Positions 10,768 to 34,571 of a DNA stretch of 35,268 nt are shown piece after piece. Numbering within the stretch: position 1 is the stretch's first letter; every line of letters starts with the position of its first letter. The position numbers and the translations under genes are program-made. The notes under the pieces are model-generated. The model did no database searches, had not been told where the DNA came from, and saw only the letters and a program-made list of their open reading frames with translations. This DNA is from Deltaproteobacteria bacterium (GTDB taxonomy: Bacteria > Desulfobacterota > Syntrophia > Syntrophales > Smithellaceae), in NCBI GenBank assembly GCA_025361065.1, contig JANYAY010000178.1:1-35268 (forward strand), given 5' to 3'.

Positions 10768-10848
10768 TTCATTATCTATCAAAAAAGGGGGTGAAATTTT
10801 TACTGATAATTTTTCATGATTTCAAAATCAATAAAAATGGAGGTCTTT

Positions 10849-15156: not shown

Positions 15157-15157
15157 A

Positions 15158-16474: not shown

Positions 16475-17920
16475 GTGCATCAGTCGTATCCTCGCCTGAT
16501 CATAGCCGCCCTGAGGGGTGGAGCAGGGAAAACGGTAATATCCGTCGCTCTGGCTGCGGCCTTGCAGAAGCGGAAAATTGCCGTTACCCCCTTTAAGAAG
16601 GGCCCGGACTATATAGACAGTGCCTGGCTGGCCCTGGCGTCACAGAAAGTCTGTTATAATCTGGATACATTTCTTATGGGTCCCGACGAGGTAGTGCGGT
16701 CTTTTACAGCTCATGCTTCCGCCAATGCCCTTTCTTTGATTGAGGGAAACCGGGGGCTCTATGACGGTGTCAACGCCGCCGGGGATTACAGCACGGCTGA
16801 GCTGGCCAAGCTTCTCCTCGCGCCGGTCATTCTGGTTATCGACTGTGACAAGATCACGCGTACTGCAGCGGCCCTGATTCTCGGATGCTGTCACCTGGAT
16901 CCGGCTGTTGATATTCGGGGCGTTATTCTCAGCAGAGTAGGCAGCCGCCGCCATGCCGAGGTGATCAAACAGTCCATAAAGGATTATTGCCACCTTCCGG
17001 TTTTCGGCACAGTGCCGCGGATGAATGATCTTCCGTTTACGGAGCGACACCTGGGATTGATTCCCCCTCAGGAACACTGCGGCAGACAAGAGGCATTAAA
17101 CCGGGCGGCAGCCATCGCTGAAGAATATCTGGATATCGAGGGGCTTATCCGGGTGGCCGAAAGCGCCACGCCCTGGCCGGCGGATAAGTATTTACATATC
17201 GTCAATAAGGATAGGACTTCTCAGGAACCCGTGACGATCGGTGTGCTGAAGGACAACGCTTTCCAGTTTTATTATCCGGAAAATCTGGATGCCCTGGCCG
17301 CAAGAGGAGCTAAAATTGTCGAGATAAGTGCGCTTGCGGCAAAGGCACTGCCCGAGATTGATGCCTTGTACATCGGTGGAGGGTTTCCCGAAACACAGGC
17401 GGCGGGCCTGGCCGCCAATGAAAGCTTTCGCTCTTCTTTGCATAAAGAGGCGGAAAAGGGACTCCCGATTTATGCCGAATGCGGAGGCTTTATGTATCTG
17501 GGTGAGTCACTGACTATCGGCGGAAAATGTTATCCGATGGTCGGCGCCCTGCCGGTTCACTTCGGCATGGAGACACGTCCTCAGGGGCATGGCTATGTGG
17601 AATTGGAAGTTGATAAGGAAAATCAGTTTTTCCCCGTCGGCGCCAAGGTGAAAGGTCACGAGTTTCATTACGGCAGGATCATTTCTGCCAAGAAGAAAGA
17701 GGACACTTATACCGCTTTTCATATTCTGCGGGGAACGGGCATGGGCCGGGAAAGAGACGGAATGGTCCGGAAAAACATTCTGGCCGGTTTCACCCATCTT
17801 CACGCTCTAGGAACACCAATGTGGGCGGAAGCAATGATCGGTGCCGGCAGTCGTTATCATAGAGAAAAGCAAAGAAATAAAGCTGTTATCGGACTTAAAA
17901 GTGCAAAAGAGAGAAGATAG
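16475..17920 (+). CDS. dsrN: DsrN, CbiA-like glutamine-dependent siroheme amidase
   Basis: A 481-residue member of the cobyrinic acid a,c-diamide synthase (CbiA) family. In dsr operons this protein is called DsrN and is thought to amidate siroheme to the siroamide form bound by DsrAB. The N-terminal P-loop domain reads ALRGGAGKTVISVALAAAL (residues 12-30), with DYIDSAWL and EGNRGLYDG nucleotide and substrate motifs. The C-terminal glutaminase domain has the nucleophile C336 in AECGGFMYL and a histidine in GHEFHYGR. It starts at GTG with AGGTGG upstream, 28 bases after dsrD. A cobalamin role is the alternative, but the placement between dsrD and dsrC favours DsrN. Confidence 0.92.
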   Translation: MHQSYPRLIIAALRGGAGKTVISVALAAALQKRKIAVTPFKKGPDYIDSAWLALASQKVCYNLDTFLMGPDEVVRSFTAHASANALSLIEGNRGLYDGVNAAGDYSTAELAKLLLAPVILVIDCDKITRTAAALILGCCHLDPAVDIRGVILSRVGSRRHAEVIKQSIKDYCHLPVFGTVPRMNDLPFTERHLGLIPPQEHCGRQEALNRAAAIAEEYLDIEGLIRVAESATPWPADKYLHIVNKDRTSQEPVTIGVLKDNAFQFYYPENLDALAARGAKIVEISALAAKALPEIDALYIGGGFPETQAAGLAANESFRSSLHKEAEKGLPIYAECGGFMYLGESLTIGGKCYPMVGALPVHFGMETRPQGHGYVELEVDKENQFFPVGAKVKGHEFHYGRIISAKKKEDTYTAFHILRGTGMGRERDGMVRKNILAGFTHLHALGTPMWAEAMIGAGSRYHREKQRNKAVIGLKSAKERR

Positions 17921-18022: not shown

Positions 18023-18343
18023 ATGGCACAAATCGAATTAGCGGGAAAAACCTATGAAGTTGATGAAGACGGATTTCTGCAGGAACTGGACAAATGGAGT
18101 GAGGAATTTGCCCAGGCTTACGCTCATACTGAAGACATCGAGGGAACATTAACCGAAGAACATTGGAAGGTAATCAATTACCTGCGCAATTATTTTCAGC
18201 AATTTGGCATTGCCCCCATGATTCGTAAAATCTGCAAGGACCTTGGTATCGACATGACGAAACTCTATGAATTATTTCCCACCGGACCGGCAAAAGGCGC
18301 TTGCAAACTGGCCGGACTTTCAAAACCTACGGGATGCGTGTAA
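18023..18343 (+). CDS. dsrC: DsrC, sulfur carrier protein
   Basis: A 106-residue DsrC/TusE-family protein. It ends in GACKLAGLSKPTGCV, with both conserved cysteines (C94 and the penultimate C105, ten residues between). Having both marks true DsrC, which forms a trisulfide with sulfite-derived sulfur on DsrAB that is later reduced at DsrMKJOP. GAAGGAGG lies upstream. A 102-base gap after dsrN may hold a separate promoter, as dsrC is often highly expressed. It is often unlinked to dsrAB, so its position here within the cluster is worth noting. Confidence 0.97.
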   Translation: MAQIELAGKTYEVDEDGFLQELDKWSEEFAQAYAHTEDIEGTLTEEHWKVINYLRNYFQQFGIAPMIRKICKDLGIDMTKLYELFPTGPAKGACKLAGLSKPTGCV

Positions 18344-18739: not shown

Positions 18740-19678
18740 ATGGGAACGCTGATTATCGTTCTGACATATATAGCCTACGTGTTGATCGTCACGATCTACA
18801 CGATTAAGGTCAGGAAATGGCTAAAGATGCCGCCGCATATTCGCTGGGATCTCTACCCTGTGATTCATGAGAAGCATTACCGTTACGGCGGTTCCTACTA
18901 TGAAGAGCAGGAATGGTGGACCAAGCCGCGTCCGAAGAACCGCTGGCGGAGTCTTCTGTATTCGCTCAAAGACAATTTTTATATGGGCGAATACTATAAA
19001 AAGAATCCGCTTTACTGGCTGTTTCTTCTGCCGTGGCATTTGAGTTTCATTTTTATCATCGCGTTCCATATCCTCTGCTTTTTCGCTGCTGTATCTATGG
19101 CTTGCGGGTTAGAGATCGGCGCCTCGTCAGCCAGCCTGTCAGGCCAGTCGTTTTATTATATTCTGCTTGTGACCGGAGGCTTTTCCTTCATTGCCGGCAC
19201 CTGCGGCAGCCTCGGAATGATCTTCATCAGGCTTTACGACCGGTCTTTGCGAACCTTCTCCATGCCGATGAATTTCTTTAATTATATCTTCTTTCTCATT
19301 GTCTACGGAAGCGGCCTTATCGCCTGGCTGGCCTTTGATCCGACCCTTGATGAATACAGAACTTACTGGCTGGGACTGATCACTCTGTCCGCTCCGGCCC
19401 TCCATCCGATGACACTTCTCCATATCGTTTTGTTCGATCTCTTTCTCATTTATCTGCCCTTTACCCGTTCCACACATTACATCACCAGGATACTGGCTTA
19501 CTTCTTCATCCGCTGGGACGATGAACCGAATCAGCGGGGCAGTAAGATGGAGGGGCAGATTATCGAACTTCTCGGGCAGAAAGTTTCCTGGGGTGCGCCG
19601 CATATTGCCCAAGGGAAAAGTTGGGCGGAAGTGGCCACAGAACCGGGTTTTATCGCCATAAAAAAGGATAGTAAATGA
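18740..19678 (+). CDS. Cytochrome b-type membrane subunit, DsrM/TmcC-like (second copy)
   Basis: A 312-residue membrane protein of the nitrate reductase gamma/DsrM/TmcC superfamily. It has one span at residues 3-23, then a soluble stretch with RWDLYPVIHE and GGSYYEEQEWW typical of TmcC/HmeC-like proteins, then about four more spans. Candidate heme b ligands are H100 and H110 in the second span and H222 and H228 in the fifth. It likely passes electrons between the quinone pool and the HdrD-like partner encoded next, which starts four bases before this stop. It is distinct from dsrM at 21279. No tmcA or tmcD is in view. A strong AAAGGAG precedes the ATG. Confidence 0.8.
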   Translation: MGTLIIVLTYIAYVLIVTIYTIKVRKWLKMPPHIRWDLYPVIHEKHYRYGGSYYEEQEWWTKPRPKNRWRSLLYSLKDNFYMGEYYKKNPLYWLFLLPWHLSFIFIIAFHILCFFAAVSMACGLEIGASSASLSGQSFYYILLVTGGFSFIAGTCGSLGMIFIRLYDRSLRTFSMPMNFFNYIFFLIVYGSGLIAWLAFDPTLDEYRTYWLGLITLSAPALHPMTLLHIVLFDLFLIYLPFTRSTHYITRILAYFFIRWDDEPNQRGSKMEGQIIELLGQKVSWGAPHIAQGKSWAEVATEPGFIAIKKDSK

Positions 19679-21279
19679 ACAGGTTAATTAAAATTGAAGA
19701 TTTCAGCAGTTGCCGCGAACAATTGGTGGAAATTGATCCGGCAGAACTGATCCCCCTGCCTCCGCCTTATGATAAAATAGAGAAGCCGCCGATCCGCAAG
19801 CTCACGGACGATCAGCTAAAGCGCATGGATGCATCCCTCGACGGGGTCGTCGCCATCGGCCTTCCCCCCCCTTCCGGCCCTGAAGAAGAAAAAGCATTCA
19901 TCGACAAATTTCTGGCCGGGCTTGCGAAACTCTTTACGGTGGAAAACAACTGGACATTTCTGCAACCGCTTGTCCATACGCTGGAGTATTGCGTGAAGTG
20001 CCAGATCTGCTCCGACTCCTGTCCGACATACATCGCCAGCGGCAAACAGGAGATATATCGACCGACAATGCGTCCGGAAATTCTCCGGCGGATCATCAGC
20101 AAGTACATCAAGAAGGAGAACTCTCTCGTCAGAAAGTTCAAGTCCAGCGATATCGATCTCACCTGGCAGACATTAGCCCGCCTGGCGGAGCTCGCCTACC
20201 GGTGCACACTTTGCCGCCGCTGCGCTCAGGTCTGCCCGATCGGTTGCGACAATGCCCTGATCAGCAGAGAGATAAGAAAGATATTCAGCCAGGAGATGGG
20301 TATCGCCCCCAAGGAGATTCATGAAAAGGGGTCCGTTCAGCAGCTCAGGGTCGGGTCATCAACGGGGATGACCTCCGCTGCGCTGAAAAACATACTGGAA
20401 TTTGTGGAAGAGGAGATAGAAGAGAAAACGGGCCGGAAGATCAAAATTCCGCTGGATAAAAAAGGCGCGGATATGCTGATCATTCACAATGCCGGCGAAT
20501 TCATGGCCTGGCCGGAAAACCTGGAGGCCTTTGCCATTATTCTGGATGCTGCCGGCGTCGATTACACCCTCTCCAGTGAGATTGCCGGCTATGACTCCGT
20601 CAATTACGGTGTCTGGTATGACGACTTCCAGTTCGCCCGCGTCGCCATCCTTCAGTCCCAGGTGGCCAGGGCATTGGGAGTCCGGAAGATCTCTCTGGGA
20701 GAATGCGGCCATGCCCACAAGGCGGGGATTGTCATCGCCGACCGTGTGCTCGTAGGCGACCTCAACATCCCCCGCGAAAGCACTCTGCCGCTCCTGGAAG
20801 AAATTGTCATGAGCGGTAAAATCAAGCTCGATCCGGGCCGCAATAATTTCCCCGTAACGCTGCATGATCCGTGCAATATGGTCCGGCTCATGGGAATCGT
20901 CGAGCCGCAAAGACGCATCTTGAGAAAAATCGCCCCGCAGTTTCGGGAAATGACACCCCATGGAGTGGAGAATTACTGCTGCGGCGGGGGCAGCGGCTTT
21001 GCCATCACCCAATCAACAAACTTCCCCGACTGGCGTAATGCCGTCTCCGGACGGATGAAGTTCAAACAGATACTGGAAGCCTTTCAGGATGTTCCGGGAC
21101 CGGAGGTGAAGAAGTACGTTTGCGCCCCCTGCTCGAACTGCAAGGGACAGTTTCGCGACATGTTTGAATATTACGGGGCCTGGAAAAAATCCGGCATCAT
21201 GTATGGCGGATTGGTGGAATTAATCGTCAATGCCATGGTCGACATTGAAAAACCATTTCATCAGTGGGAGTGGCATTGA
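19675..21279 (+). CDS. HdrD/DsrK/TmcB-like iron-sulfur subunit (second copy)
   Basis: A 534-residue protein with two 4Fe-4S ferredoxin motifs (C106, C109, C112, C116 and C177, C180, C183, C187) and two CCG-type cysteine-rich domains in the C-terminal half (LGECGHAHK, LHDPCNMVR, YCCGGGSG, CAPCSNCKG). CCG domains bind the catalytic cluster of heterodisulfide reductases, so it may reduce a disulfide or trisulfide partner such as DsrC. It forms a pair with the preceding cytochrome b by a four-base overlap, and its stop overlaps the dsrM start. It is clearly related to, but divergent from, dsrK at 22274, with a different N-terminus. Confidence 0.85.
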   Translation: MNRLIKIEDFSSCREQLVEIDPAELIPLPPPYDKIEKPPIRKLTDDQLKRMDASLDGVVAIGLPPPSGPEEEKAFIDKFLAGLAKLFTVENNWTFLQPLVHTLEYCVKCQICSDSCPTYIASGKQEIYRPTMRPEILRRIISKYIKKENSLVRKFKSSDIDLTWQTLARLAELAYRCTLCRRCAQVCPIGCDNALISREIRKIFSQEMGIAPKEIHEKGSVQQLRVGSSTGMTSAALKNILEFVEEEIEEKTGRKIKIPLDKKGADMLIIHNAGEFMAWPENLEAFAIILDAAGVDYTLSSEIAGYDSVNYGVWYDDFQFARVAILQSQVARALGVRKISLGECGHAHKAGIVIADRVLVGDLNIPRESTLPLLEEIVMSGKIKLDPGRNNFPVTLHDPCNMVRLMGIVEPQRRILRKIAPQFREMTPHGVENYCCGGGSGFAITQSTNFPDWRNAVSGRMKFKQILEAFQDVPGPEVKKYVCAPCSNCKGQFRDMFEYYGAWKKSGIMYGGLVELIVNAMVDIEKPFHQWEWH

Positions 21280-22271
21280 TGCTTATGAAGAACCTCGGAA
21301 TATCGATTGTCGCCGTTGTTATACTCATTGCTCTACCCGCTTTAGCATCCGTGCAGGGATACAACTTTTTTCTGACGGTCTTCCCTTATGCCGCCTTTGC
21401 GGTTTTCCTCGGCGGATTTATCTACCGGATGGTTAAATGGTGGATAATTCCTGTTCCGTTCCGAATTACGACGACTTGCGGGCAGCAAAAATCCCTCCCC
21501 TGGATTAAGCAAAGTCCCTTGGAAAACCCCGCCGGTTTTTGGGGTGTAGCGGGAAGGATGGCGCTCGAGATTTTCCTGTTCCGGTCGCTTTTTCGGAACA
21601 CCAGCGTGGAAATATCAGGCAAACGGCCTGTTTACGGCAGCGCCAAATGGCTCTGGTTTTTTGGTCTCGTCTTTCACTGGTCCCTTTTAATTATAGTATT
21701 GAGACACCTGCGCTTTTTCATCGAACCTGTCGCTCCCTGGATTGCCGGCCTTTCGGCACTGGACGGCTTTTTCGAAATCGGTATTCCGGCCCTTTACTTA
21801 AGTGACTTCGCAGTTCTCGCCGGACTGTCGGTTTTGTTTCTGCGACGGGTGATCATTCCCCGGGTGCGTTATATTTCTCTGCCGGTTGATTATTTTGCCC
21901 TGCTGCTGATCCTGGGAATTGTGGTGACAGGCCTGCTCATGAGACACTTCTTTTCCACCGATCTTCTGGCGGTAAAAAGTATCGTGCTGGGATGGATTAC
22001 ACTGTCACCTGTTGTTCCCGCCGGAATAGGCATATTTTTTTACATCCACCTTTTCTTAGTTTTTACACTGATGGTCTGGTTTCCTTTCAGTAAACTCATG
22101 CATCTGGGCGGTGTCTTCCTCAGCCCCACCCGCATCCTGGCAAACAACAACCGTAGGGAACGGCACATCAATCCGTGGAATGCTCCCGTCAAAGTCCATA
22201 CCTATGCGGAATACGAAGATGAGTTTCGGGATAAAATGAAGGCCGTTGGCCTGCCGGTGGATAAGGAGTAG
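21279..22271 (+). CDS. dsrM: DsrM, cytochrome b membrane subunit of DsrMKJOP
   Basis: A 330-residue DsrM. It has a cytoplasmic segment PFRITTTCGQQKSLPWIK and a region FGLVFHWSLLIIVLRHLRFF with histidines fit for heme b, then further spans with VTGLLMRHFF and FFYIHLFLVF. It carries electrons between menaquinol and DsrK. The start is taken at 21279, where the previous stop TGA overlaps ATG and GGGAG lies about nine bases upstream; an in-frame ATG at 21264 would extend it into the previous gene. DsrK begins two bases after the stop. Confidence 0.93.
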   Translation: MLMKNLGISIVAVVILIALPALASVQGYNFFLTVFPYAAFAVFLGGFIYRMVKWWIIPVPFRITTTCGQQKSLPWIKQSPLENPAGFWGVAGRMALEIFLFRSLFRNTSVEISGKRPVYGSAKWLWFFGLVFHWSLLIIVLRHLRFFIEPVAPWIAGLSALDGFFEIGIPALYLSDFAVLAGLSVLFLRRVIIPRVRYISLPVDYFALLLILGIVVTGLLMRHFFSTDLLAVKSIVLGWITLSPVVPAGIGIFFYIHLFLVFTLMVWFPFSKLMHLGGVFLSPTRILANNNRRERHINPWNAPVKVHTYAEYEDEFRDKMKAVGLPVDKE

Positions 22272-22273
22272 AC

Positions 22274-23875
22274 ATGTCGCAAGCCAAGATACCCAAACCT
22301 GATGAATTGATCAATATCGAATACCGCCCGCCCCCAACCGGCTGGATGGATACGCAGGTGAACTTCCGCCCGGGAACCTGGAGCTACAGCGGCGCCGCCA
22401 AAAACCTGACCTATCTGGATCTTCCCAACCCCAGGGTTTGGCAGCCCACAGACGAGGATTGGAAACTGCCGGAAAATTGGCAGGAAATCATTCTCGCGGG
22501 AATGAAGGAGCGGCTGGAAAAATACCGTTCCTTCCGTCTGTTCATGGATATTTGTGTCCGTTGCGGCGCCTGCGCGGATAAGTGCCACTTCTACATTGGC
22601 TCCGGTGATCCCAAGAACATGCCGGTCGTGCGGGCGGAGCTTTTGCGTTCCGTTTACCGGCGTTATTTTACCCAATCGGGAAAGCGCTTAGGATGGCTGG
22701 TCGGCGCCCGGGACCTGACGGTGGATGTCCTCAAGGAATGGTTTTATTACTTCTACCAGTGCACGGAATGCCGCAGGTGTTCAGTGTATTGTCCCTACGG
22801 AATCGATCAGGCGGAAATCACCATGATCGGCCGCGAACTTCTCAATCTGGTCGGATGCAACATCAATTGGGTGGTCGAACCGGTGGCCAATTGTTTCCGG
22901 ACCGGGAATCACCTGGGTATTCAGCCCGGTGGTATCAAGGATATGCTGGAATTTATCGCCGACGATATCTTCGATAGGACTGGTGTACGTATTGAAGTCC
23001 CGATTAATAAAAAAGGCGCTGATATCCTCTTCGTCACGCCTTCGGCGGACTATTTTGCCGATCCGGGAACCTACACCTGCATGGGCTATATGATGCTCTT
23101 CCATGAAATCGGCCTGAATTACACCTTCAGTACCTATGCCTCTGAGGGTGGTAACTTCGGTCTCTTTACGTCCCATGAGATGATTAAGCGTCTGAATGCG
23201 AAGATCTATGCCGAAGCGAAACGTCTGGGGGTCAAGTGGATTCTGGGCGGGGAGTGCGGACACATGTGGCGGGTCATTCATCAGTATATGGACACGATGA
23301 ACGGCCCGGCTGAATATCTTTCAGAGCCTGTTTCTCCCATTACGGGCACGCGTTTTGCAAATGCCCGTTCCACCAGGATGGTACACATAACGGAATTTAC
23401 CGCCGACCTGATCCGCCAGGGCAAGCTGAAACTCGATCCCCGAAGAAACGACCACATCAGGCTTACTTTCCATGATTCCTGTAATCCTGCGCGGGCCATG
23501 GGGCTCTTCGAGGAACCAAGATATATAATCAATAACGTCTGTAACCATTTTTATGAAATGGCCGAAGATACAATCCGGGAGAAAACCTTGTGCTGCGGCG
23601 CCGGAGCCGGTCTGGGCAATGATGAAAACATGGAAATGCGTATGCGGGGCGGAATGCCCAGAGCCATGGCCGTTCGGGATGTCGTAAAAAAGCATGCCGT
23701 GAATCGCCTGGGATGCATCTGCGCCATTGACCGGGCGACGCTTACTTCCCTTATGGACTACTGGGTGCCGGGAATAAAGGTCATGGGTGTCCATGAACTA
23801 CTGGCAAACGCTCTGATCATGAAGGGTGAGAAAGAGCGAACAACGGATATTCGCGGAGAATCTTTAATAAAATGA
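22274..23875 (+). CDS. dsrK: DsrK, HdrD-like catalytic subunit of DsrMKJOP
   Basis: A 533-residue cytoplasmic iron-sulfur protein. Two 4Fe-4S motifs are at C94/C97/C100/C104 and C163/C166/C169/C173. CCG-domain cysteines follow in GGECGHMW, FHDSCNPARAMG and LCCGAGAG, where the special cluster acting on the DsrC trisulfide is thought to sit. The PPPTGWMDTQVNF N-terminus is typical of true DsrK. It is followed by dsrJ with a four-base overlap. Confidence 0.95.
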   Translation: MSQAKIPKPDELINIEYRPPPTGWMDTQVNFRPGTWSYSGAAKNLTYLDLPNPRVWQPTDEDWKLPENWQEIILAGMKERLEKYRSFRLFMDICVRCGACADKCHFYIGSGDPKNMPVVRAELLRSVYRRYFTQSGKRLGWLVGARDLTVDVLKEWFYYFYQCTECRRCSVYCPYGIDQAEITMIGRELLNLVGCNINWVVEPVANCFRTGNHLGIQPGGIKDMLEFIADDIFDRTGVRIEVPINKKGADILFVTPSADYFADPGTYTCMGYMMLFHEIGLNYTFSTYASEGGNFGLFTSHEMIKRLNAKIYAEAKRLGVKWILGGECGHMWRVIHQYMDTMNGPAEYLSEPVSPITGTRFANARSTRMVHITEFTADLIRQGKLKLDPRRNDHIRLTFHDSCNPARAMGLFEEPRYIINNVCNHFYEMAEDTIREKTLCCGAGAGLGNDENMEMRMRGGMPRAMAVRDVVKKHAVNRLGCICAIDRATLTSLMDYWVPGIKVMGVHELLANALIMKGEKERTTDIRGESLIK

Positions 23876-24276
23876 AATTAAATAATATCGGAAAAATAGT
23901 TGCCGGAATTGTGATCTTCATTGTCCTCGCCACTTTCTTCTTCTGGTATGGTACGGGAAAATCATCTTCCCTGCCTCAGCCTAGCCTGGATACGCCAGCT
24001 ATTGCGCAAATGAAAGAAAAACGCTGCGTGGAAGACAAAGCATTTATGAGCATAAACCACATGAAGCTGCTCCATAACTGGCGCGACAGCGCCGTCCGGG
24101 AAGGGAATCGTAATTATACGGCAAAAAACGGCAATGTTTATAAGATGAGTCTGTCCGGCACATGTCTTGAGTGCCACAGCAACAAGGAACAATTCTGTGA
24201 CCGTTGCCACACCTATGTGGCGGCCAAGCCCGCCTGCTTCAGTTGTCACAGCATTCCCGCGGAGGTAAAAAAATGA
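23872..24276 (+). CDS. dsrJ: DsrJ, membrane-anchored triheme cytochrome c
   Basis: A 134-residue periplasmic cytochrome held by one N-terminal span (residues 7-27). Three CxxCH heme sites are at 98-102, 109-113 and 122-126 (CLECH, CDRCH, CFSCH). C52 in KRCVED is in the position of the cysteine proposed as an unusual distal heme ligand in DsrJ. It overlaps dsrK and dsrO by four bases at each end, consistent with one complex. Confidence 0.95.
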   Translation: MKLNNIGKIVAGIVIFIVLATFFFWYGTGKSSSLPQPSLDTPAIAQMKEKRCVEDKAFMSINHMKLLHNWRDSAVREGNRNYTAKNGNVYKMSLSGTCLECHSNKEQFCDRCHTYVAAKPACFSCHSIPAEVKK

Positions 24277-25061
24277 CGCCCAATCGCCGAGATTTTCTGA
24301 AAATTGCGGGGATGTCAACTCTATCACTGATAGCGCCGGCTATTCTCAGACCGGCCTTCGCCAAAGAGAAGCTGAGCATACCCGGTGCGAAAACAAACCA
24401 AACATCTTCTTCGCAGCAATTGAAGGGGAAGCGTTGGGCCATGGCGGTTGATTTTGCCAAGTGCCGCCGAGGCTGCGTTGATTGCATTGCCGCCTGTCAT
24501 GAAGTGCACAACGTTCCGCAATTTGGCAACCCCAAGGACGAGATCAAATGGATCTGGCGAGAAAAGTTTGCCGCTATCTTCCCCAGTGAAAGCCATCCTT
24601 ATCTTCCGGAGTCACTCCAGAGGCAGGGAATACCGGTTCTTTGCAACCATTGCGCCAATCCACCCTGTGTCAAGGTCTGTCCGACGAAGGCGACATTTAA
24701 GCGCGCGGACGGCATAGTGATTATGGATTACCACCGTTGCATCGGCTGCCGGTTTTGTATGGCTGCCTGTCCCTACGGGGCCAGAAGCATGAATTACCGT
24801 GATCCCCGTCCGTTTATCTCCAAAATTAATCCCGATTTCCCGACGCGTACCAAGGGCGTCGTGGAGAAATGCAACTTCTGCGAGGAGAGATTGGTGCAGG
24901 GAATTCTTCCGGCCTGTGTAACGGCCTGCAAGGAAAAAGCCCTGGTTTTCGGGGATATGGAAGATCCAAAAGCGGAGATCCGGCTTCTTCTGAGTAAACA
25001 TTTTAACCTGCGGCGCAGGGCGCATTTAGGAACTGAGCCGCAGATTTATTATATTGTATGA
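24273..25061 (+). CDS. dsrO: DsrO, periplasmic ferredoxin-like subunit
   Basis: A 262-residue iron-sulfur protein exported by the Tat pathway: the N-terminus has NRRDFLKIAG followed by a hydrophobic stretch ending around PAFA (residue 30). Several 4Fe-4S motifs are present: CRRGCVDCIAAC, CNHCANPPCVKVCP, CIGCRFCMAACP and CNFCEERLVQGILPAC. It belongs to the NrfC/HybA group. The ATG at 24273 is preferred because it gives the Tat signal and overlaps the dsrJ stop as ATGA; the frame is open further upstream. Confidence 0.95.
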   Translation: MTPNRRDFLKIAGMSTLSLIAPAILRPAFAKEKLSIPGAKTNQTSSSQQLKGKRWAMAVDFAKCRRGCVDCIAACHEVHNVPQFGNPKDEIKWIWREKFAAIFPSESHPYLPESLQRQGIPVLCNHCANPPCVKVCPTKATFKRADGIVIMDYHRCIGCRFCMAACPYGARSMNYRDPRPFISKINPDFPTRTKGVVEKCNFCEERLVQGILPACVTACKEKALVFGDMEDPKAEIRLLLSKHFNLRRRAHLGTEPQIYYIV

Positions 25062-25068
25062 GGATATT

Positions 25069-26226
25069 ATGCTCGAAAAAGCTCTGAGAGGCAGCCGCGG
25101 ATACTGGATGTGGATTATTTTCTTAGTGGCCGTAACCGCCAATGGATTCTTCTTTTACTGGCAACAGCTCAATTATGGTTTAGGCATAACCGGAATGAGC
25201 CGCGATGTTTCCTGGGGGCTCTATATCGCGCAGTTTACTTTTCTTGTGGGGATTGCCGCATCGGCCGTCATGCTCGTGTTGCCTTATTACCTCCATGACT
25301 ACAAAGCTTTCGGCAAGATCACCGTCCTGGGCGAGTTTCTGGCTGTTTCGGCTGTGATCATGTGCGTGACGTTCGTTTTTGTTGATCTCGGTCAGCCCTC
25401 ACGAGTCATGAATATTTTTCTCCATCCCGCCCCGACTTCCATCCTTTTCTGGGATACAATCGTTTTGAGCGGCTATATGCTGATTAATATTATTACCGGC
25501 TGGGTTGTTCTGTCCTGTGACCGCAAAGAAGTGCCGCCGCCCGCCTGGGTAAAGCCGCTCATCTACCTGTCTATTCCCTGGGCTGTCAGCATCCATACAG
25601 TCACTGCATTTATCTATGCCGGCCTTCCCGGAAGAAGTTTCTGGCTGACGGCGATTATGGCCCCCCGGTTCCTGGCTTCCGCTTTTGCCTCCGGTCCGGC
25701 TTTGCTGATCATCTTCTGCCTGATTCTGAAAAAATACGCCGGCTTTGATGCCGGGAAGACCGCGATTCAGACGCTCGCCAAGATTGTCGCCTATGCCCTG
25801 GCCGCAAGCATCTTCTTTGTCCTGGTCGAGCTGTTCACAGCTTTTTACGGCGGTCTCCCGGAGCATGAAGCGCATTTCCGTTATCTCTTTTCCGGCCTGC
25901 ATGGCCATCATAACCTTGTCCCCTGGATGTGGACATCCGCTGTGCTTGCCTTCGGCGCACTGGCGGCGCTGATCTATCCACGGGCGCGGAATAGCGAACC
26001 TGTCCTGGTTGCGGCCTGTGCAGCGGTTTTCCTTTCCCTCTGGATCGAGAAAGGACTCGGTCTGGTCGTGACGGGTTTCATTCCTTCGCCACTCGAAGCT
26101 GTAACCGAGTATGTTCCGACGGGGCCGGAGATGGCCATTGCACTTGGTGTCTGGGCGGGTGGGTTCCTGATTTTGACCCTGCTTTACCGGATTTTCGTCG
26201 CTGTGCGCCAAGAAGAAAACAGTTGA
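25069..26226 (+). CDS. dsrP: DsrP, NrfD-family integral membrane subunit
   Basis: A 385-residue polytopic membrane protein of the NrfD/PsrC family with about ten spans, the likely quinone-interacting partner of DsrJ and DsrO. It has the family-style N-terminus GYWMWIIFLVAVTANGFFFY and later the GLPGRSFWLTAIMAPRFLAS region. The ATG at 25069 follows GAGGAT; a TTG at 25054 that overlaps dsrO is less likely. It is the last gene of the dsrMKJOP unit. Confidence 0.93.
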   Translation: MLEKALRGSRGYWMWIIFLVAVTANGFFFYWQQLNYGLGITGMSRDVSWGLYIAQFTFLVGIAASAVMLVLPYYLHDYKAFGKITVLGEFLAVSAVIMCVTFVFVDLGQPSRVMNIFLHPAPTSILFWDTIVLSGYMLINIITGWVVLSCDRKEVPPPAWVKPLIYLSIPWAVSIHTVTAFIYAGLPGRSFWLTAIMAPRFLASAFASGPALLIIFCLILKKYAGFDAGKTAIQTLAKIVAYALAASIFFVLVELFTAFYGGLPEHEAHFRYLFSGLHGHHNLVPWMWTSAVLAFGALAALIYPRARNSEPVLVAACAAVFLSLWIEKGLGLVVTGFIPSPLEAVTEYVPTGPEMAIALGVWAGGFLILTLLYRIFVAVRQEENS

Positions 26227-26597: not shown

Positions 26598-27809
26598 ATG
26601 AAAATTTTAGTCCTGAATTGCGGCAGTTCATCATTGAAATACAAGTTGTTTGATATGGAGAGCCAGGAAGTCCTGTCCCAGGGTCAGGCAGACCGCATTG
26701 GCATGCCCGACGCTCTGTTCCGGCACGAAAGAAAAGAACAGAAGACATTTTTAGATAAAACACCTCTCTCGGATCATCGTGAAGCGGTAAATGCTCTGCT
26801 TGCTTTTCTCGGAGACGCTAAACAGGGGATTCTGGCGGATATGAGGGATATCGGCGGTGTCGGACACCGGGTAGTCCACGGGGGAGAACATTTTCAGACC
26901 TCCGTTATCGTGAATCCCGCAATACGGGAAACCCTCGAGGACACCAAGAAACTGGCGCCATTGCATAATCCGCCTAACCTGATGGGAATTGATGTCTGCA
27001 CGGGGCTCATGCCCGGCGTACCTCAGGTGGCCGTCTTTGACACGGCTTTCCACCAGACCATGCCTGAATATGCCTACACCTACGCAATCCCTTACCGCTA
27101 TTATAAGGAAGACCATGTCCGGCGCTACGGTTTCCATGGCATTTCTCACCGGTATGTGGCCAACCAAACGGCAAAGATCTTACAACAGAAACTGGAAGAT
27201 TTGAAGATAATTACCTGTCATCTCGGAGCGGGCTCCAGTCTTTGCGCCGTTTCTTCCGGAAAATCGCAGGATACTTCCATGGGTTTTACGCCTCTTTCGG
27301 GTCTCGTCATGGGCACGCGATGCGGCGATATTGATCCGGCCCTCGTTTCCTTCCTGGTGGAGAAGGAACAAGTCCCCCTTTCTTCGGTCATGGAAATTCT
27401 CAATCGGCAGAGCGGTGTTTTTGGCATTTCCGGGATCTCCCCCGATTTTCGTGATCTGGAAGAAGAGGCCCGCCGCGGAAGTAAGCAGGCTCACCTGGCG
27501 CTAATGGTCTATGCCTACAGTGTGGCCCGCGGTGTTGGTTCCCTTATCCCGGCTGCGGGCGGTCTGGACGCTCTCGTCTTTACCGCGGGAATCGGCGAGC
27601 ACTCCTCGGCAATGCGCCGGCGGATTTGTGAATTTCTTTCCTGGATAGGCATTGTTCTGGATGAAGAGAAAAATGTGGACAGCACCGTCGAAGGAGTTAT
27701 TTCCCGTGAAGCTGCAAAGGTCAAAGTTCTCATCGTTCCCACCGATGAAGAAAAAATGATCGCTCAGGAGACGCGGGAGGTTTTAAAAAAACAATCAATT
27801 AGACATTAA
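26598..27809 (+). CDS. ackA: Acetate kinase
   Basis: A 403-residue acetate kinase, converting acetyl phosphate and ADP to acetate and ATP. It has the N-terminal motif LVLNCGSSSLKYKLFD, then VGHRVVHGGE, FDTAFHQTMP, YGFHGISHRYV, CHLGAGSSL, TRCGDIDP and a late GGLDALVFTAGIGEHS, all typical. It is followed by xsc after 21 bases. Xsc produces acetyl phosphate, so this pair gives substrate-level ATP directly. In many aerobic sulfonate degraders pta (phosphotransacetylase) lies near xsc instead. Confidence 0.96.
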   Translation: MKILVLNCGSSSLKYKLFDMESQEVLSQGQADRIGMPDALFRHERKEQKTFLDKTPLSDHREAVNALLAFLGDAKQGILADMRDIGGVGHRVVHGGEHFQTSVIVNPAIRETLEDTKKLAPLHNPPNLMGIDVCTGLMPGVPQVAVFDTAFHQTMPEYAYTYAIPYRYYKEDHVRRYGFHGISHRYVANQTAKILQQKLEDLKIITCHLGAGSSLCAVSSGKSQDTSMGFTPLSGLVMGTRCGDIDPALVSFLVEKEQVPLSSVMEILNRQSGVFGISGISPDFRDLEEEARRGSKQAHLALMVYAYSVARGVGSLIPAAGGLDALVFTAGIGEHSSAMRRRICEFLSWIGIVLDEEKNVDSTVEGVISREAAKVKVLIVPTDEEKMIAQETREVLKKQSIRH

Positions 27810-27830: not shown

Positions 27831-29588
27831 ATGAAAAAAGTTAAGATGACGCCCAGTGAGGCGATTGTGGAAACTCTGCTTGCAGAGGGTGTGGATCATG
27901 TTTGCGGCATTGTCGGTTCGGCATTTATGGATATGCTCGATCTCTTCCCGGCTGCGGGAATCAAGTTCATCCCCGTGCGCCATGAACAAAGCGCCGCCCA
28001 TATGGAAGACGCCTATTGCCGCATTTCCGGGCGCTGCGGTGTTGTCACCGGCCAGAACGGCCCCGGCATTACCAATATGGTTACTTCCGTGGCGGCAGCG
28101 AACATGGGTCACACCCCTCTCGTGATTATTTCCCCATCGGCGGGAACACCCACCATCGGATGGGACGGCTTTCAGGAGTGCGATCAGATGTCCGTCTTTA
28201 AGGCCGTTACGAAGGCTGTCGTCCGTGTTCCCCATCCCAAGAGAGCCGCCGACTGCCTGAGAACGGCTTTCCGCATTGCTTACGCCGACCGGGGCGCCGT
28301 CCTGTATGACATCCCCCGTGATTATTTTTACGGAGAACTCGAAGATACAATTCTGAAGCCCTCCCAGTACCGGGTGGACGCCCGGGGATGCGGTTCCCGG
28401 GATCAGCTGGACCGGGCCGCCGAACTTCTGGCCAAAGCCAAAAATCCCGTGATTGTCTCCGGCCGCGGTGTGGTTGATTCCGACGCGCTGGACATCGTCC
28501 AAGCCATTGCCGAGCACCTGACGGCGCCTGTGGCGGTCACCTATCTGCACAATGATGCCTTCTACGGGAACCATCCGCTCTCCGTCGGACCCATCGGCTA
28601 TATGGGCTCCAAGGCGGCAATGAAGACCCTGGCCAAAGCCGATGTCGTGCTCGCCATCGGCACGCGCCTGTCCGTCTTCGGCACCCTGCCCCAATACGAT
28701 ATCAACTATTTCCCGGATAATGCCAAGATCATTCAGATCGACATCAATCCGAAACATATTGCCCGGACCCATCCCATCGAGGTGGGGATCATTGGTGATG
28801 CCAAGGAAGCCACCGTGGAAATCTTAAAGCGCCTGAAGTCGGCGGACAAACGCAAGCCGGACACCAAACGTCTGGAAGCGGTAGCCAAGGAAAAGAAGAA
28901 ATGGGAAAAGGAGATTGTTGATTTAGCCATGGTCAAGGGCAATCCGATGAATCCCCGCCGGGTCCTCCTGGAAATGTCCAAAATACTGCCCGACAATGCC
29001 ATTGTCACCACCGATATCGGCAACGTCGCCTCTACGGCCAACAGCTACCTCAAATTCAACCGGTCGCGCCGGCATATTGCCGCCCTGACTTTCGGGAATA
29101 CCGGTTTTGCCTATCCGGCAGCTCTGGGCGCTCAGATCGCCGCCCCCAAAGATCCGGTTATCGCCATTATCGGCGACGGCGCCTGGGGGATGAGCCTCCA
29201 TGAAGTCAGCACCGCCGTGGAGCACAACCTGCCGGTTATCGCTTGTGTTTTCCGGAACATGTGGTGGGGAGCGGAAGCCAAAAACCAGGTGGATTTCTAT
29301 AACAACCGTTTCATCGGGGTGGACATTCCCACACCGGTGAGCTTTGTGCCCGCCGCCAAGGCCCTGGGAGCCGTGAGCCTCCAGATCAGCCGACCCGAAG
29401 ACATCAAGGAAGCCTTGAATGCCAGCATCAAGAGCCGCAAACCCACCGTTCTGGAATTTTTAGTGGACGGCAAGCAGTTGGCCCCGCCCTTCCGCAAAGA
29501 TGCACTGGCACTGCCGACGCGCTTTTTGCCGAAATATGCTCATCTTGATCACCACAACTGGTACAAAGGAGGCATCGATGATTTATAA
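27831..29588 (+). CDS. xsc: Sulfoacetaldehyde acetyltransferase (ThDP-dependent)
   Basis: A 585-residue enzyme of the ThDP family with Pyr, middle and PP domains. Xsc converts sulfoacetaldehyde and phosphate to acetyl phosphate and sulfite. The catalytic glutamate is E52 ([13 protein letters not shown]), and the ThDP-magnesium motif is G448-D449-G450 through N476. Segments that recall Xsc more than acetolactate synthase are [48 protein letters not shown] and near the end [11 protein letters not shown]. The length also fits Xsc. GGAGG precedes the ATG, and the dehydrogenase gene overlaps its end by 11 bases. Family placement is strong; enzymatic activity is inferred. Another acetolactate synthase-like function is the main alternative. 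Confidence 0.86.
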
Positions 29589-30417
29589 AGACTTGCAAGG
29601 AAAAACAGCTATAGTAACGGGAGCGGGGAAAAAAACCGGCATTGGCTACTCCATTGCGGAAAAACTTGCCTCCTGCGGCGGCAACGTCATCATTGCCGAT
29701 CTGGGAAAAACACCCTCACCGGGAGAGTCGTTGCAATCAGCGACTGGAGAAGAAATGGATGATATTGCCGCCGAACTGGCAAAAATGCATGGCATCAGGA
29801 CACTGGCCGTGGCCGTCGATGTGACGGACAACAAGGCCATCGGGGCAATGGTTACAACCATAACAAAAACCTTTGACCACATTGATATTCTTTGCAACAA
29901 TGCGGGGGCATCCTTTGGCGTCCCGAATACGGTTTTGAGTTATGACGAAGCGGCCTGGATCAAGACGATTGATGTAAATCTGTTTTCCGTCTTCCGCCTA
30001 TCGCGGGCCGTCATTCCCCTGATGGCGGGCAAACCTGCGGCCATCATCAATACGGCCTCCCGGGCCGGCAAGGTGCCGCCAATTTTCAACAGTGCTTATG
30101 CCGTGGCCAAGGCCGGTGTTATCATGCTGACCAAGACCATGGCCAAAGAACTGGGCGCGGCGGGAATCCGCGTCAATGCGATCTGCCCGGGGCAGATCGC
30201 CACGGATTTGGAGAAATGGCGGTTCGGCCTGGAAGCGTCGTTTTTCGGCACGACGATTGAGGAGCGGGAAAAGGAAATGTGCAAGACAATTCCTTTGGGA
30301 TATATCGGACCACCCCGTGAAGCTGCTGATTTAGTTCTTTTTCTGGCTTCCGACGCCTCGCGGTATATTACCGGACAGGCCATCAATATCGATGGCGGCC
30401 AGTGTATGGAATTATAG
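29578..30417 (+). CDS. Short-chain dehydrogenase/reductase
   Basis: A 279-residue SDR oxidoreductase. The nucleotide motif [10 protein letters not shown] is at residues 14-23, NNAG at 107-110, and the catalytic set S161, Y174 and K178 (SAYAVAK). D41 after the second strand suggests NAD preference. The last residues DGGQCMEL are typical of the family. It overlaps the end of xsc and starts after an AAAGGAGG site. In this operon it could oxidise a hydroxylated sulfonate (isethionate, sulfolactate or dihydroxypropanesulfonate). Only the family is certain. Confidence 0.85.
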
Positions 30418-30454
30418 TGAAACGAAACAACCAACCATTTTAGGAGGAAAGTTC

Positions 30455-32152
30455 ATGGAGAAAATTATTGGCGGCCGGTTGGCCGCAGAAGCGCTCTTAG
30501 AGCGGGACATAGATTACATTTTTACACTTAGCGGCGGGCATATTACCCCTATCTACCAATTTCTGGAAAATTCCCGCATCACTCTTTTCGACACGCGTCA
30601 TGAACAGGCGGCCGTCTTTATGGCCGAGGCCTGGGCAAAGATGACCCGTAAGCCCGCCGTAGCCATGGTGACGGCAGGGCCGGGATTCACCAATGCCCTG
30701 TCCGGCATTGCCAGCGCAAGGCTGTCCAACACTCCGGTGATTCTCATTTCCGGTGTTGTGGGTTTGGATGCTTCCGAGAAACTCGATCTCCAGGATATGG
30801 TCCAACAACCCGTAATTGCACCGATGGTTAAGAAGGCTCTGACCTGCCAGGTTGCAGAACGCATCCCGGAATATATCGATATGGCTTTCCGCATAGCCAT
30901 GAGTGGACGACCCGGCCCAGTCTACCTGGAGATACCCTGCAATCTGCTCAATGCCACAATTGATCCGTCCAAAGTCAAGAAGCCGCACACGATGATCACA
31001 TCCAAACCCGTTGACCGGGAAAACACTCAAAAGGTTGTTGACCTTCTGCAGGCGGCGAAAAATCCCATCGTCATCGCCGGCAGCGGCGCCTGGTATGACG
31101 ATGCCGGCGCGGAACTCATTAAGTTTGTTGAAAACGCAGGAATTCCCGCCTTTACGTCAGGTATGGCACGGGGTATTATTTCCGACACCCATCCCCTCTG
31201 TTTTGAATCCTCCATGGCCATACGCCCGAGTGGGTGCCTGATGGCTGATTTCAGCACTGATCTGGTCCTTTTCCTCGGCGACAGTTTGAGTCTCTTCTAT
31301 ATGTTTGGGGAAATTTTCCCGTCTTCCGCCAAGTTCATTCAGGTGGACATCGAACAAAGCGAGATCGGACGCAACCGCACCGTCGATCTGGGCATCGTCA
31401 GCGACATCAAATCTTTTCTTACAGAATTGAATGGAATTCTGCAGGAGAAGGCCATCGGCGCCACCCTCCGGAAGCAATTCGAACCCTGGGTAGAAATTGT
31501 CCGGAAGGCGGACAAGGACGGCAAGGAACAGGCCAAATCCCTTTGGGAATGCAAAACCCTGCCCATACACCCCATGCGGCTGGCCAGAGAGGTCAACGAT
31601 TTCATGAATCGGGAGGATGATATAGTCATCGCCGACGGCGGAGATACCTGCACCTGGATGGGTATGACTCGAACAGTCGTCAAGGGCGGAACCTATCTGG
31701 ATTATGGCCTTTATGGATGCCTGGCGGTGGGACTTCCCTATGCCATTGCGGCAAAACTAAAGAATCCGGATAAACGTGTTCTCGCCATCATGGGTGACGG
31801 CTCTACCGGTTTCAATTTCATGGAATATCATACCGCCATCCGCAAGAATGTTCCGATTGTAGTGGTAATCGGCAACGACCAGGCCTGGGGCATGATTATG
31901 CACAGCCAGCAGTTGCGCCTGGGACACAATATCCCCAACGGAACGGAACTGGGCTGGGTAGATTACCATAAGATGGTGGAGACCATGGGAGGCTTCGGCA
32001 TTTGCGTGGAGAGGCCGGAAGATATCCGGCCGGCTCTGGAGGCGGCTTTTGCTTCCGGGAAGACGGCCTGTGTCAATGTCAAGGTCGATCCTACCATTAT
32101 CAGCCCGGGCAGCGTGGCCCTGGCGAATATTGGCGGATACAAATGCGAATGA
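30455..32152 (+). CDS. Second full-length ThDP-dependent enzyme, acetolactate synthase/lyase-like
   Basis: A 565-residue three-domain ThDP enzyme. The activating glutamate is E50 (DTRHEQAAVFMAEAW) and the ThDP-magnesium motif is G447-D448-G449 followed by VVIGND. The N-terminus LSGGHITPIYQFLE resembles 2-hydroxyacyl-CoA lyases and acetolactate synthases, not Xsc. It is not the small two-subunit type of sulfopyruvate decarboxylase (ComD/ComE). Given its place after xsc and the dehydrogenase, it may form sulfoacetaldehyde from a C3 sulfonate, by decarboxylating sulfopyruvate or cleaving a ketol. TAGGAGGAAA precedes the ATG. Substrate is unknown. Confidence 0.75.
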   Translation: MEKIIGGRLAAEALLERDIDYIFTLSGGHITPIYQFLENSRITLFDTRHEQAAVFMAEAWAKMTRKPAVAMVTAGPGFTNALSGIASARLSNTPVILISGVVGLDASEKLDLQDMVQQPVIAPMVKKALTCQVAERIPEYIDMAFRIAMSGRPGPVYLEIPCNLLNATIDPSKVKKPHTMITSKPVDRENTQKVVDLLQAAKNPIVIAGSGAWYDDAGAELIKFVENAGIPAFTSGMARGIISDTHPLCFESSMAIRPSGCLMADFSTDLVLFLGDSLSLFYMFGEIFPSSAKFIQVDIEQSEIGRNRTVDLGIVSDIKSFLTELNGILQEKAIGATLRKQFEPWVEIVRKADKDGKEQAKSLWECKTLPIHPMRLAREVNDFMNREDDIVIADGGDTCTWMGMTRTVVKGGTYLDYGLYGCLAVGLPYAIAAKLKNPDKRVLAIMGDGSTGFNFMEYHTAIRKNVPIVVVIGNDQAWGMIMHSQQLRLGHNIPNGTELGWVDYHKMVETMGGFGICVERPEDIRPALEAAFASGKTACVNVKVDPTIISPGSVALANIGGYKCE

Positions 32153-32224: not shown

Positions 32225-33511
32225 ATGAGTGAAGTACCTGCAGCCAAGGAATACAAGTTGTCCAAGCGTAGTTCCTACTACATTTTTACCCTGCTGTTTC
32301 TCCTGTATTTCTTCGATTATGTTGATCGGACAGTTGTCACATCTCTGGCACCCTTCATTAAAGTGGAGTGGGGTCTGACAGACGCCCAGACCGGTCTGCT
32401 CATGTCAGTTGTCTACTGGTCTATCGTCGCCTTCGTCTTTCCTGTTTCGATCATTGTGGACCGCTGGAGCCGGAAAAAGACGATCGGCATCATGGCCCTT
32501 CTCTGGACCGCCGCAACGGTCGCCTGCGCTTTCACCAGGACATTTCCCCAGTTGCTTATGGCCCGCTCCGCCATCGGGATCGGCGAGGCCGGATATGCTC
32601 CCGCCGGCACGGCCCTGATTTCCGGTTTGTTTCCTCCGGAAAAACGCTCCCGCATGATGGGATTCTGGAATATGTCCATTCCCCTAGGTATTGCCATCGG
32701 CATTGGCCTCGGCGGTTTTATAGCTACACACTGGGGCTGGCGGCATGCCTTCGGCGTAGTGGCCCTTCCCGGGGCAATTGTCGCCATCCTTTTTTTCTTC
32801 ATCAAGGACTATAAAACGGTGGAGTTGACCAAAGGCGATGCCGGACAAACAAACGCCAAGATGAACAAGATGGATATTGCCAGGAGATTTATCCGCACCC
32901 CCTCGCTGATATTGACTTATATCGGGTTTATCGGTTGCGTCTTCGCCAGCAATGCGGTCATCTTCTGGCTTCCCACTTTTTTTCACCGGACCACAGGCAT
33001 TTCCATCGCCGATGCCGGCATGAAAACGAGCGCACTCATGTTACTGGCAATAGTCGGCCTTCCTCTGGGAGGATGGCTGGCCGATATGTGGTTTAAAAAA
33101 CGTCCGAATGCCCGACTGCTGTTTCCTGCGCTAACCGCTATCCTCGCCGCCAGCTCAATGTTTATCGCTTTTTCTTTCCTGGAGGGGAAAGCGCAATACA
33201 TGGTTCTTCTGTTACATGGCGTTCTGGCCAGTGCTTATGCCCCGGCGGCTATTACTGCCACGCAGGAAGTCATTCATCCGGGCCTGAGGGCCGTTTCCTA
33301 CTCCCTGTGTGTCATTGTTCAGAATCTTCTGGGGGCGTCTCTGGCACCGATTGTCATAGGCGCGATTTCCGATAGTTATGATATCAAAGTTGCGATGTCT
33401 GTTGTCCCCATCGCCCTCGTAATATCGGCGCTGGCATTTTTTGCCGGATCTTATTATTACAAAAAAGATTTGAGCAGGGTGGAAAAGGTTGCCCTGGAAT
33501 GCGAAAGCTGA
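32225..33511 (+). CDS. MFS transporter, probable organic anion (sulfonate) importer
   Basis: A 428-residue major facilitator with about 12 spans. It has a motif-A-like loop DRWSRKK after the second span and a related ADMWFKKRP in the second half, and a conserved GIGEAGYAPAGTALISGLFP in the fourth to fifth span region typical of spinster/anion-symporter-like members. A long cytoplasmic loop separates the halves around residue 200. AAGGAGG precedes the ATG. It lies within the xsc run, so import of the sulfonate substrate is a reasonable but untested guess. Confidence 0.82.
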   Translation: MSEVPAAKEYKLSKRSSYYIFTLLFLLYFFDYVDRTVVTSLAPFIKVEWGLTDAQTGLLMSVVYWSIVAFVFPVSIIVDRWSRKKTIGIMALLWTAATVACAFTRTFPQLLMARSAIGIGEAGYAPAGTALISGLFPPEKRSRMMGFWNMSIPLGIAIGIGLGGFIATHWGWRHAFGVVALPGAIVAILFFFIKDYKTVELTKGDAGQTNAKMNKMDIARRFIRTPSLILTYIGFIGCVFASNAVIFWLPTFFHRTTGISIADAGMKTSALMLLAIVGLPLGGWLADMWFKKRPNARLLFPALTAILAASSMFIAFSFLEGKAQYMVLLLHGVLASAYAPAAITATQEVIHPGLRAVSYSLCVIVQNLLGASLAPIVIGAISDSYDIKVAMSVVPIALVISALAFFAGSYYYKKDLSRVEKVALECES

Positions 33512-33548: not shown

Positions 33549-34571
33549 ATGAAAGCAGTCGTTTTTCGTCAGGGGAGGGGTTTAGTTTATGAAGATGTCC
33601 CCGATTACAAGACAGGAACTGATGAGGTGCTGGTTCGGGTAGCCAATACGGGCTTCTGCGGTTCCGATCATTCTCTGGTCAAAGGCGGATTGGTGCAGGA
33701 CGGTTATATCCTTGGTCACGAAATCAGTGCCGTCGTCGTGGAAAAAGGAGCCAAGGCCTACGGCCCGGCTCTGGGAACCCGTGTTTGTATCCGTCCGACG
33801 TATTGCGGAACTTGCGCCAATTGTCTTTCCGGCAGACAGCACCTCTGCCGGACCGGCCGGCGAACCGCGGGAATCGGCGACTTACCCGGTGGCTTTGCCC
33901 AGTTTGTCAAAGTCTATCCGCAGATGCTGATTCCTATCCCGGCAGGAGTGGATTCGCGCAATGCCGCGCTGGCGGAGACCTTTGCATCCGCCCTGCACGC
34001 CATCAATTGTACGGGAGATCAGAAGGGTTCCGCTCTGGTGATGGGAGGAGGACCCATCGGACTTTCCGCCGTCGCAATTCTTAAAATTCTCGGTTATAGT
34101 CCCATTGTGCTCTTCGAGCCGGTGAAGGCAAAGAGAGACATAGCCCTCCTCTATGGAGCCGAACATGTATTCGACCCGCGGGAAGAGGATCTCAACTCGC
34201 GGGTTATGGCGCTTGTTCCCGGTGGGTTTGATAAAACGTTCGAATGTTCCGGTGTAACGGCCAATGTCAGCCGCGCGATCACTCTCGCGGCTGACGGGGG
34301 ACAGGTATGTGTTGTGAGCGTTATCTTCCAACCGCTGGAGATCGCCGAGCCCTATCTCATAAATTTCAAGGAAGTGCGCCTGACGGCTTCCATCTCCAAT
34401 ACGCACCAGGAAAACATCCAGTGCCTCAACTGGATGGCCAAGGGCATTCTGGACGCCCGACCGCTCATCTCTGATGATGAACCTCTGGAGCGTTTGCCTG
34501 CCGTTTACCGGGAGAGAATCGATACCGGTCTGGCCGTGAAAGTGATGCTCCGGATTGGCGAGGAATTCTAA
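33549..34571 (+). CDS. Zinc-dependent medium-chain dehydrogenase
   Basis: A 340-residue MDR-family dehydrogenase. Catalytic zinc ligands are C37 (FCGSDH) and H57-E58 (GHE). Structural zinc cysteines are C86, C89, C92 and C100 (CGTCANC...C). The nucleotide motif GGGPIGLS follows near 168, and an acidic residue (LFEPVKAKRD) after the next strand favours NAD. It could oxidise a hydroxyl group of the sulfonate or reduce an aldehyde. The pairing of an SDR and an MDR with an MFS recalls the HpsO, HpsP and HpsU set for dihydroxypropanesulfonate, though this is only an analogy. The ribosome binding site is weak. Confidence 0.85.
   Translation: MKAVVFRQGRGLVYEDVPDYKTGTDEVLVRVANTGFCGSDHSLVKGGLVQDGYILGHEISAVVVEKGAKAYGPALGTRVCIRPTYCGTCANCLSGRQHLCRTGRRTAGIGDLPGGFAQFVKVYPQMLIPIPAGVDSRNAALAETFASALHAINCTGDQKGSALVMGGGPIGLSAVAILKILGYSPIVLFEPVKAKRDIALLYGAEHVFDPREEDLNSRVMALVPGGFDKTFECSGVTANVSRAITLAADGGQVCVVSVIFQPLEIAEPYLINFKEVRLTASISNTHQENIQCLNWMAKGILDARPLISDDEPLERLPAVYRERIDTGLAVKVMLRIGEEF

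Follow-up and report, generated by a model that had tools for sequence, protein, structure and literature searches.

A ThDP-dependent enzyme of 565 residues, encoded beside the gene for sulfoacetaldehyde acetyltransferase (Xsc) and directly behind a complete dsr cluster, is, among proteins of solved structure, most closely related to benzaldehyde lyase (BAL), its engineered form formolase, and the 2-hydroxyacyl-CoA lyases (HACLs), and its predicted assignment as a C-C lyase of the BAL/HACL type is reasonably supported by sequence comparison. The leading, if tentative, reading is that this lyase would make sulfoacetaldehyde for Xsc from oxidized 2,3-dihydroxypropane-1-sulfonate (DHPS). The window, the whole stretch of 35,268 nucleotides that was analyzed, corresponds to contig C83 in a Smithellaceae (Syntrophales) metagenome-assembled genome that spans 3.95 Mb and is 97% complete.

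The ThDP Gene and Its Operon

The gene lies at 30455-32152 on the forward strand. Its longest reading, 30392-32152, would encode 586 residues; the start at 30455 (MEKIIGGR...) is taken as the right one because the orthologs align from that Met. The protein matches TPP_enzyme_N (PF02776, 3.8e-33), TPP_enzyme_M (PF00205, 1.5e-31), and TPP_enzyme_C (PF02775, 4.3e-34), and with all three TPP domains it is therefore full length rather than a short ComD/ComE subunit. Fifteen orthologs are 62%-92% identical to it over the full length, which rules out a chance ORF; the gene is genuine and full length. The TPP domain set (N, middle, and C) places the enzyme in the pyruvate oxidase (POX) family, as do its catalytic Glu (E50, within RHEQ) and a GDG...N motif for ThDP at 447-474, both of which are invariant in the 15 orthologs. 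The initial annotation had described a second, distinct, full-length ThDP enzyme in the xsc operon, with all catalytic motifs and neither Xsc nor of the short ComD/ComE type. Each of these points was borne out: the single chain has a middle domain, is 25% identical to the adjoining Xsc, and scores 229 bits with PRK07525 (cut-off 620), and TIGR03457 (Xsc, cut-off 676) is not among its 25 best NCBIfam models.

The operon is a tight run in the order ackA-xsc-SDR-ThDP-MFS-ADH, all on the forward strand. Acetate kinase, which forms ATP from acetyl phosphate, is encoded by ackA (26598-27809; TIGR00016, 478 bits, cut-off 293), and xsc (27831-29588) scores 839 bits with TIGR03457. Next are an SDR oxidoreductase of 279 residues (29578-30417; adh_short_C2, PF13561), the ThDP gene, an MFS transporter of the organic-anion type (32225-33511; nearest model the galactonate transporter TIGR00893, below cut-off), and the operon's second oxidoreductase, a Zn-dependent medium-chain dehydrogenase (ADH; 33549-34571; PF08240 and PF00107), whose best PDB match is 4ej6, followed by threonine and idonate dehydrogenases. 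By ORF coordinates, the gaps are 21 bp (ackA-xsc), 37 bp (SDR-ThDP), 72 bp (ThDP-MFS), and 37 bp (MFS-ADH), and xsc and the SDR gene overlap by about 11 bp. This close spacing from ackA to the ADH gene makes a single transcript plausible. In other genera, as judged by reading of the sequences, the place of the MFS transporter is taken by a BASS-type or DASS-type transporter.

Upstream of the operon and on the same strand lie dsrA (13948-15156) and dsrB (15044-16219), which encode dissimilatory sulfite reductase (TIGR02064 and TIGR02066, above cut-off), a gene for a cbiA/cobB-type a,c-diamide synthase (16475-17920; PRK01077, above cut-off), dsrC (18023-18343; TIGR03342, above cut-off), and dsrMKJOP (21264-26226; NCBIfam DsrM, DsrK, DsrJ, DsrO, and DsrP models). 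The canonical dsrMKJOP is directly preceded by an extra dsrM-like/dsrK-like pair (18740-19678 and 19675-21279; NCBIfam DsrM and DsrK models). No AprA was found over the cut-off in the genome, and sulfite, not sulfate, is therefore the probable input of the Dsr system. Two relatives of the YeiH-type putative sulfate exporter, at 9204-10307 (reverse strand) and 10816-12294 (forward strand), both below the cut-off of TIGR00698, sit just ahead of the LysR-dsr region. Several relatives have dsrP and ackA separated by a gene for a 565-residue FAD/NADH oxidoreductase, CoA-disulfide reductase-like by eye (L023 2308-4005, L024, L032, L036, and L048), which is absent from the window.

Conservation and Linkage to xsc

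The 38 ThDP loci compared come from two overlapping collections, usually with a single locus from each genome. An SDR ortholog is found in 37 of them, and in 35 it directly precedes the ThDP gene in the same orientation; the SDR is thus a near-obligate partner of the ThDP gene. This pairing is stronger than that with xsc. Among 155 Syntrophales genomes, 52 carry the ThDP enzyme, 27 carry xsc, and 25 carry both (Fisher p 2e-12, ignoring common descent), with the two genes on one contig in 23 of the 25. The xsc linkage, whose conservation in other genomes the initial annotation had proposed to check, is conserved: the enzyme is found in 25/27 xsc genomes. In about half of its own genomes (27/52), however, xsc was not detected, so the association with xsc is not a strict one. 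On Desulfobulbaceae contig L030, the gene immediately ahead of that for a ThDP enzyme with 62% identity encodes a divergent Xsc, and in genome G008 another divergent Xsc lies 4.7 kb from the ThDP gene.

The xsc-less orthologs bear on what the enzyme may cleave. The enzyme might be a lyase for some other α-hydroxy carbonyl: a different sulfonate, such as 4-deoxy-4-sulfoerythrulose (split into sulfoacetaldehyde and glycolaldehyde), or an anionic diol that bears no sulfonate. The link to xsc would then be a recruitment particular to certain lineages. This reading is rather unlikely, although it survives better than the alternatives considered below. It would account for the xsc-less genomes of families f2 and f14, in which the SDR-ThDP pair is kept among other neighbors, and for the ThDP-SDR pairs on Variovorax and Rhodococcus plasmids. 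R257, R406, and H491, moreover, are conserved in both the xsc-linked and the xsc-less subgroups, which suggests an anionic substrate in both; these residues are candidate anion contacts. Against it stand the presence of the enzyme in nearly all xsc genomes and two residues, 87 and 417, that track xsc. Position 417 corresponds to His415 of BAL in the PDB alignment. The Y417 group is defined by this residue itself, so the independent fact is that Y417 occurs in every sampled xsc genome and in L030; the xsc-less subgroup carries N87/S417. Only positions 20, 87, 197, 417, and 543 cleanly separate the f2/f14 xsc-less sequences from the Y417 group, and L030, which has Xsc, matches the xsc group at 87 and 417 only. 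Six Y417 genomes have no detected xsc, which could reflect incomplete assemblies or loss. As most xsc-less orthologs differ at the position of BAL His415, substrates probably vary, and some orthologs probably serve other substrates.

In genome G001, the only detected xsc stands apart from the SDR-ThDP genes, which counts against the leading reading; in the region L050 957-4788 it follows genes for a class III aminotransferase and an FAD-dependent, sarcosine oxidase-type dehydrogenase of 809 residues. These neighbors suggest entry from taurine or N-methyltaurine, and this single case fits a supply of sulfoacetaldehyde by exchangeable modules. A PLP enzyme of the sphingosine-1-phosphate (S1P) lyase family also recurs beside xsc or the SDR-ThDP genes (L026 6481-7983, reverse strand; L027; L029; L045; L050 14638-16086; L088 5693-6922). 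The L026 protein matches solved S1P lyases at E 1e-121, and that of L088 was assigned by eye; such an enzyme might cleave sulfonolipids (capnoids) to taurine.

Relationship to Known ThDP Enzymes

The best NCBIfam model for the ThDP enzyme is PRK05858, "acetolactate synthase," at 418 bits against a cut-off of 587. Scores with the biosynthetic AHAS model TIGR00118 (286 bits, cut-off 538), the HACL model NF058623 (338 bits, cut-off 600), and the OXC model are likewise below cut-off. A PDB sequence search returned BAL and formolase as best matches (E 3e-78), followed by actinobacterial HACL (AcHACL) and relatives (5e-74), ahead of acetolactate synthase (4e-53). An AlphaFold model derived from 15 close orthologs was only fair (pLDDT 66.8, pTM 0.54), and the Foldseek result obtained with it is for that reason taken as support only: except for a ThDP "HKA synthase," all of the top 50 matches were 2-hydroxyacyl-CoA lyases/synthases, with AcHACL at the top, BAL, or formolase, and no AHAS or pyruvate decarboxylase was among them. 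In a tree with reference proteins, the enzyme falls among BAL, AcHACL, and IlvG-like sequences, away from Xsc and from the genome's AHAS-like paralog C70. Another paralog in the genome (L002 1501-3135, on contig C173) is 41% identical, keeps the SGGH motif, and lies in another context.

The match to BAL (PDB 2AG0) and the engineered formolase (4QQ8), the best among solved structures, extends over residues 2-556 with near-equal numbering. BAL and the ThDP enzyme have in common His29, Glu50, Thr73, Gln113, and a WGxxxHxQ helix, but they are distant homologs overall, about 31% identical when aligned by Foldseek. The aromatic-acyloin pocket of BAL, which we take to consist of A28, Y397, H415, A480, and F484 (numbering checked against the PDB alignment), is replaced by G28, C399, Y417, M480, and S484. 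Whereas BAL acts on aromatic acyloins, the context of the ThDP enzyme is that of an anionic substrate.

Active Site and Alternative Reactions

G28, H29, E50, T73, and Q113 are invariant in the 15 orthologs, and H29 and Q113 are also kept in the other Syntrophales sequences of the tree, except for the divergent L098, which has Ser at position 29. G28/H29/T73/Q113 align with G43/H44/T88/Q128 of AcHACL, which bind the substrate carbonyl and the neighboring (acyl Cβ) hydroxyl, directly and through water (PMC13327070). At the Q128 site, HACLs, BAL, SAAT, AHAS, and POX carry Gln, OXC carries Glu, and the 2-oxoacid decarboxylases that form aldehydes carry His or Leu (PMC13327070, Table 1). Gln113 in the ThDP enzyme therefore favors an α-hydroxy carbonyl substrate over sulfopyruvate. 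It is not proof against decarboxylation, because AHAS and POX carry Gln yet decarboxylate.

A single-chain sulfopyruvate decarboxylase is accordingly an unlikely identity for the enzyme. In that case, the SDR or the ADH would form sulfopyruvate from sulfolactate, and decarboxylation to sulfoacetaldehyde would fall to the ThDP enzyme in place of ComDE. Indeed, no match to ComD (TIGR03845) was found in the genome, although Xsc needs sulfoacetaldehyde, and in the classic route, as encoded on a Leisingera plasmid, HpsNOP occur together with ComDE. One protein of the Ldh_2 family, to which ComC belongs, is encoded elsewhere in the genome. Besides Gln113, the nearest relatives argue against such a role, as they are lyases that act without CO2 release.

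Cleavage of sulfolactyl-CoA to sulfoacetaldehyde and formyl-CoA, as in AcHACL, is more doubtful. In its favor, AcHACL ranks second among the solved relatives, the G43/H44/T88/Q128 set is common to it and the ThDP enzyme, and sulfoacetaldehyde would again be the product, the aldehyde leaving first. The operon in the window, however, contains no CoA ligase or CoA-transferase that could activate the substrate, and the score with NF058623 is far under its cut-off. The ThDP enzyme also has a shorter, BAL-like C terminus without the OXC-type extension, and Glu493, which protonates the carbanion in AcHACL, is replaced by Ile481; human HACL2 likewise has Ile at this position, so that Glu493 is not universal.

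An identity as acetolactate synthase, which automatic annotation would assign from the best-scoring model PRK05858, is very improbable and was rejected on the model cut-offs and on the tree, in which the enzyme does not group with C70; nor are ilv genes present among the neighbors scanned (ackA, xsc, SDR, MFS, ADH, and dsr genes). The mycobacterial protein P66947 presumably belongs to the PRK05858 group. It has itself been given as a putative HACL (PMC13327070), which also speaks against the synthase.

Proposed Pathway from DHPS to Sulfide

The chemistry, substrate, products, and direction that we infer for a C-C lyase of the BAL/HACL kind are as follows. The transporter would import DHPS, and the SDR and the Zn dehydrogenase, perhaps one per enantiomer, would oxidize it to an α-hydroxy carbonyl sulfonate, either 3-sulfolactaldehyde or its ketol isomer 3-hydroxy-2-oxopropanesulfonate. 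The ThDP ylide would attack the substrate carbonyl, and His29 and a water held by Thr73 and Gln113 would accept the proton of the neighboring hydroxyl. The carbonyl-carbinol bond would then break to give sulfoacetaldehyde and a one-carbon aldehyde, formaldehyde. Xsc would convert sulfoacetaldehyde to acetyl phosphate and sulfite, AckA would make ATP, and DsrAB would reduce the sulfite. Against this scheme, the release of two free aldehydes should be thermodynamically unfavorable and would have to be pulled, and no dedicated formaldehyde-oxidizing gene was identified in the operon.

The initial annotation had offered two hypotheses, decarboxylation of sulfopyruvate and cleavage of the ketol, either of which would be a new entry to Xsc. 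The closest relatives and the active-site set point to C-C cleavage, with decarboxylation less likely, and a new entry is plausible. The ketol is not required, since both it and 3-sulfolactaldehyde would yield sulfoacetaldehyde and formaldehyde by BAL-type cleavage, and the aldehyde is chemically the cleaner substrate. On chemical grounds, attack on the aldehyde carbon of sulfolactaldehyde would be preferred because sulfoacetaldehyde then leaves first. With the ketol, the carbanion formed on ThDP beside CH2SO3- would be the one from which Xsc itself eliminates sulfite, and a separate Xsc would be less needed.

The known enzymes HpsO and HpsP are reported to oxidize the C3 hydroxyl of DHPS to sulfolactaldehyde (PMC11131964). 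The products of hpsO, hpsP, and hpsU are a PF13561 SDR, a PF00107-PF08240 MDR, and an MFS transporter (PMC11382572), and the operon's SDR, Zn dehydrogenase, and MFS transporter match this family make-up. Identification of the SDR and ADH as HpsO and HpsP was nevertheless not supported: their identity to HpsO/HpsP-type proteins encoded on plasmids is 29%-36%, no higher than that to other SDRs and MDRs. The references were a Leisingera hpsN-hpsO-hpsP-comDE cluster and a Klebsiella cluster; the other hisD-bearing plasmid regions examined were not hps clusters. As the SDR and ADH are not orthologous to HpsO and HpsP, DHPS is a substrate that we infer.

The Roseobacteraceae route from DHPS through sulfolactate and sulfopyruvate (HpsNOP, SlcD, ComDE, and Xsc) has in common with the operon the Xsc end point and an SDR, an MDR, and a transporter. 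In contrast, the genome studied here lacks ComDE, has one HisD homologue only and therefore no separate HpsN, and has an anaerobic Dsr sink. In the sulfonate respiration of Bilophila and Desulfovibrio (IslA, HpsG), sulfonate-derived sulfite is likewise reduced by Dsr, but there the C-S bond is cleaved by a glycyl radical enzyme and here by Xsc; none of the five glycyl radical enzymes in the genome reaches the HpsG/HpfG (sulfopropanediol dehydratase) cut-offs.

Implications for Sulfonate Metabolism

DHPS is reported to be a globally abundant organosulfur compound (PMC11131964). The DHPS-to-Xsc routes that we found described run via sulfolactate and sulfopyruvate, and the HpsN-Xsc route has been found only in Alphaproteobacteria (PMC11382572). 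No ThDP lyase linked to sulfoacetaldehyde was found in the literature searched. It is possible, and is proposed here with caution, that the ThDP lyase splits oxidized DHPS into sulfoacetaldehyde and formaldehyde, giving a DHPS-to-sulfide route that needs neither HpsN nor ComDE nor a glycyl radical enzyme. If true, entry through a C-C lyase would be an extra step in sulfonate metabolism and the natural counterpart of the engineered formolase reaction, and it would caution against the annotation of such genes as acetolactate synthase. It would also explain what feeds the Dsr cluster in Syntrophales without AprA and would supply sulfonate-driven sulfide production in these uncultured anaerobes by a means not described before.
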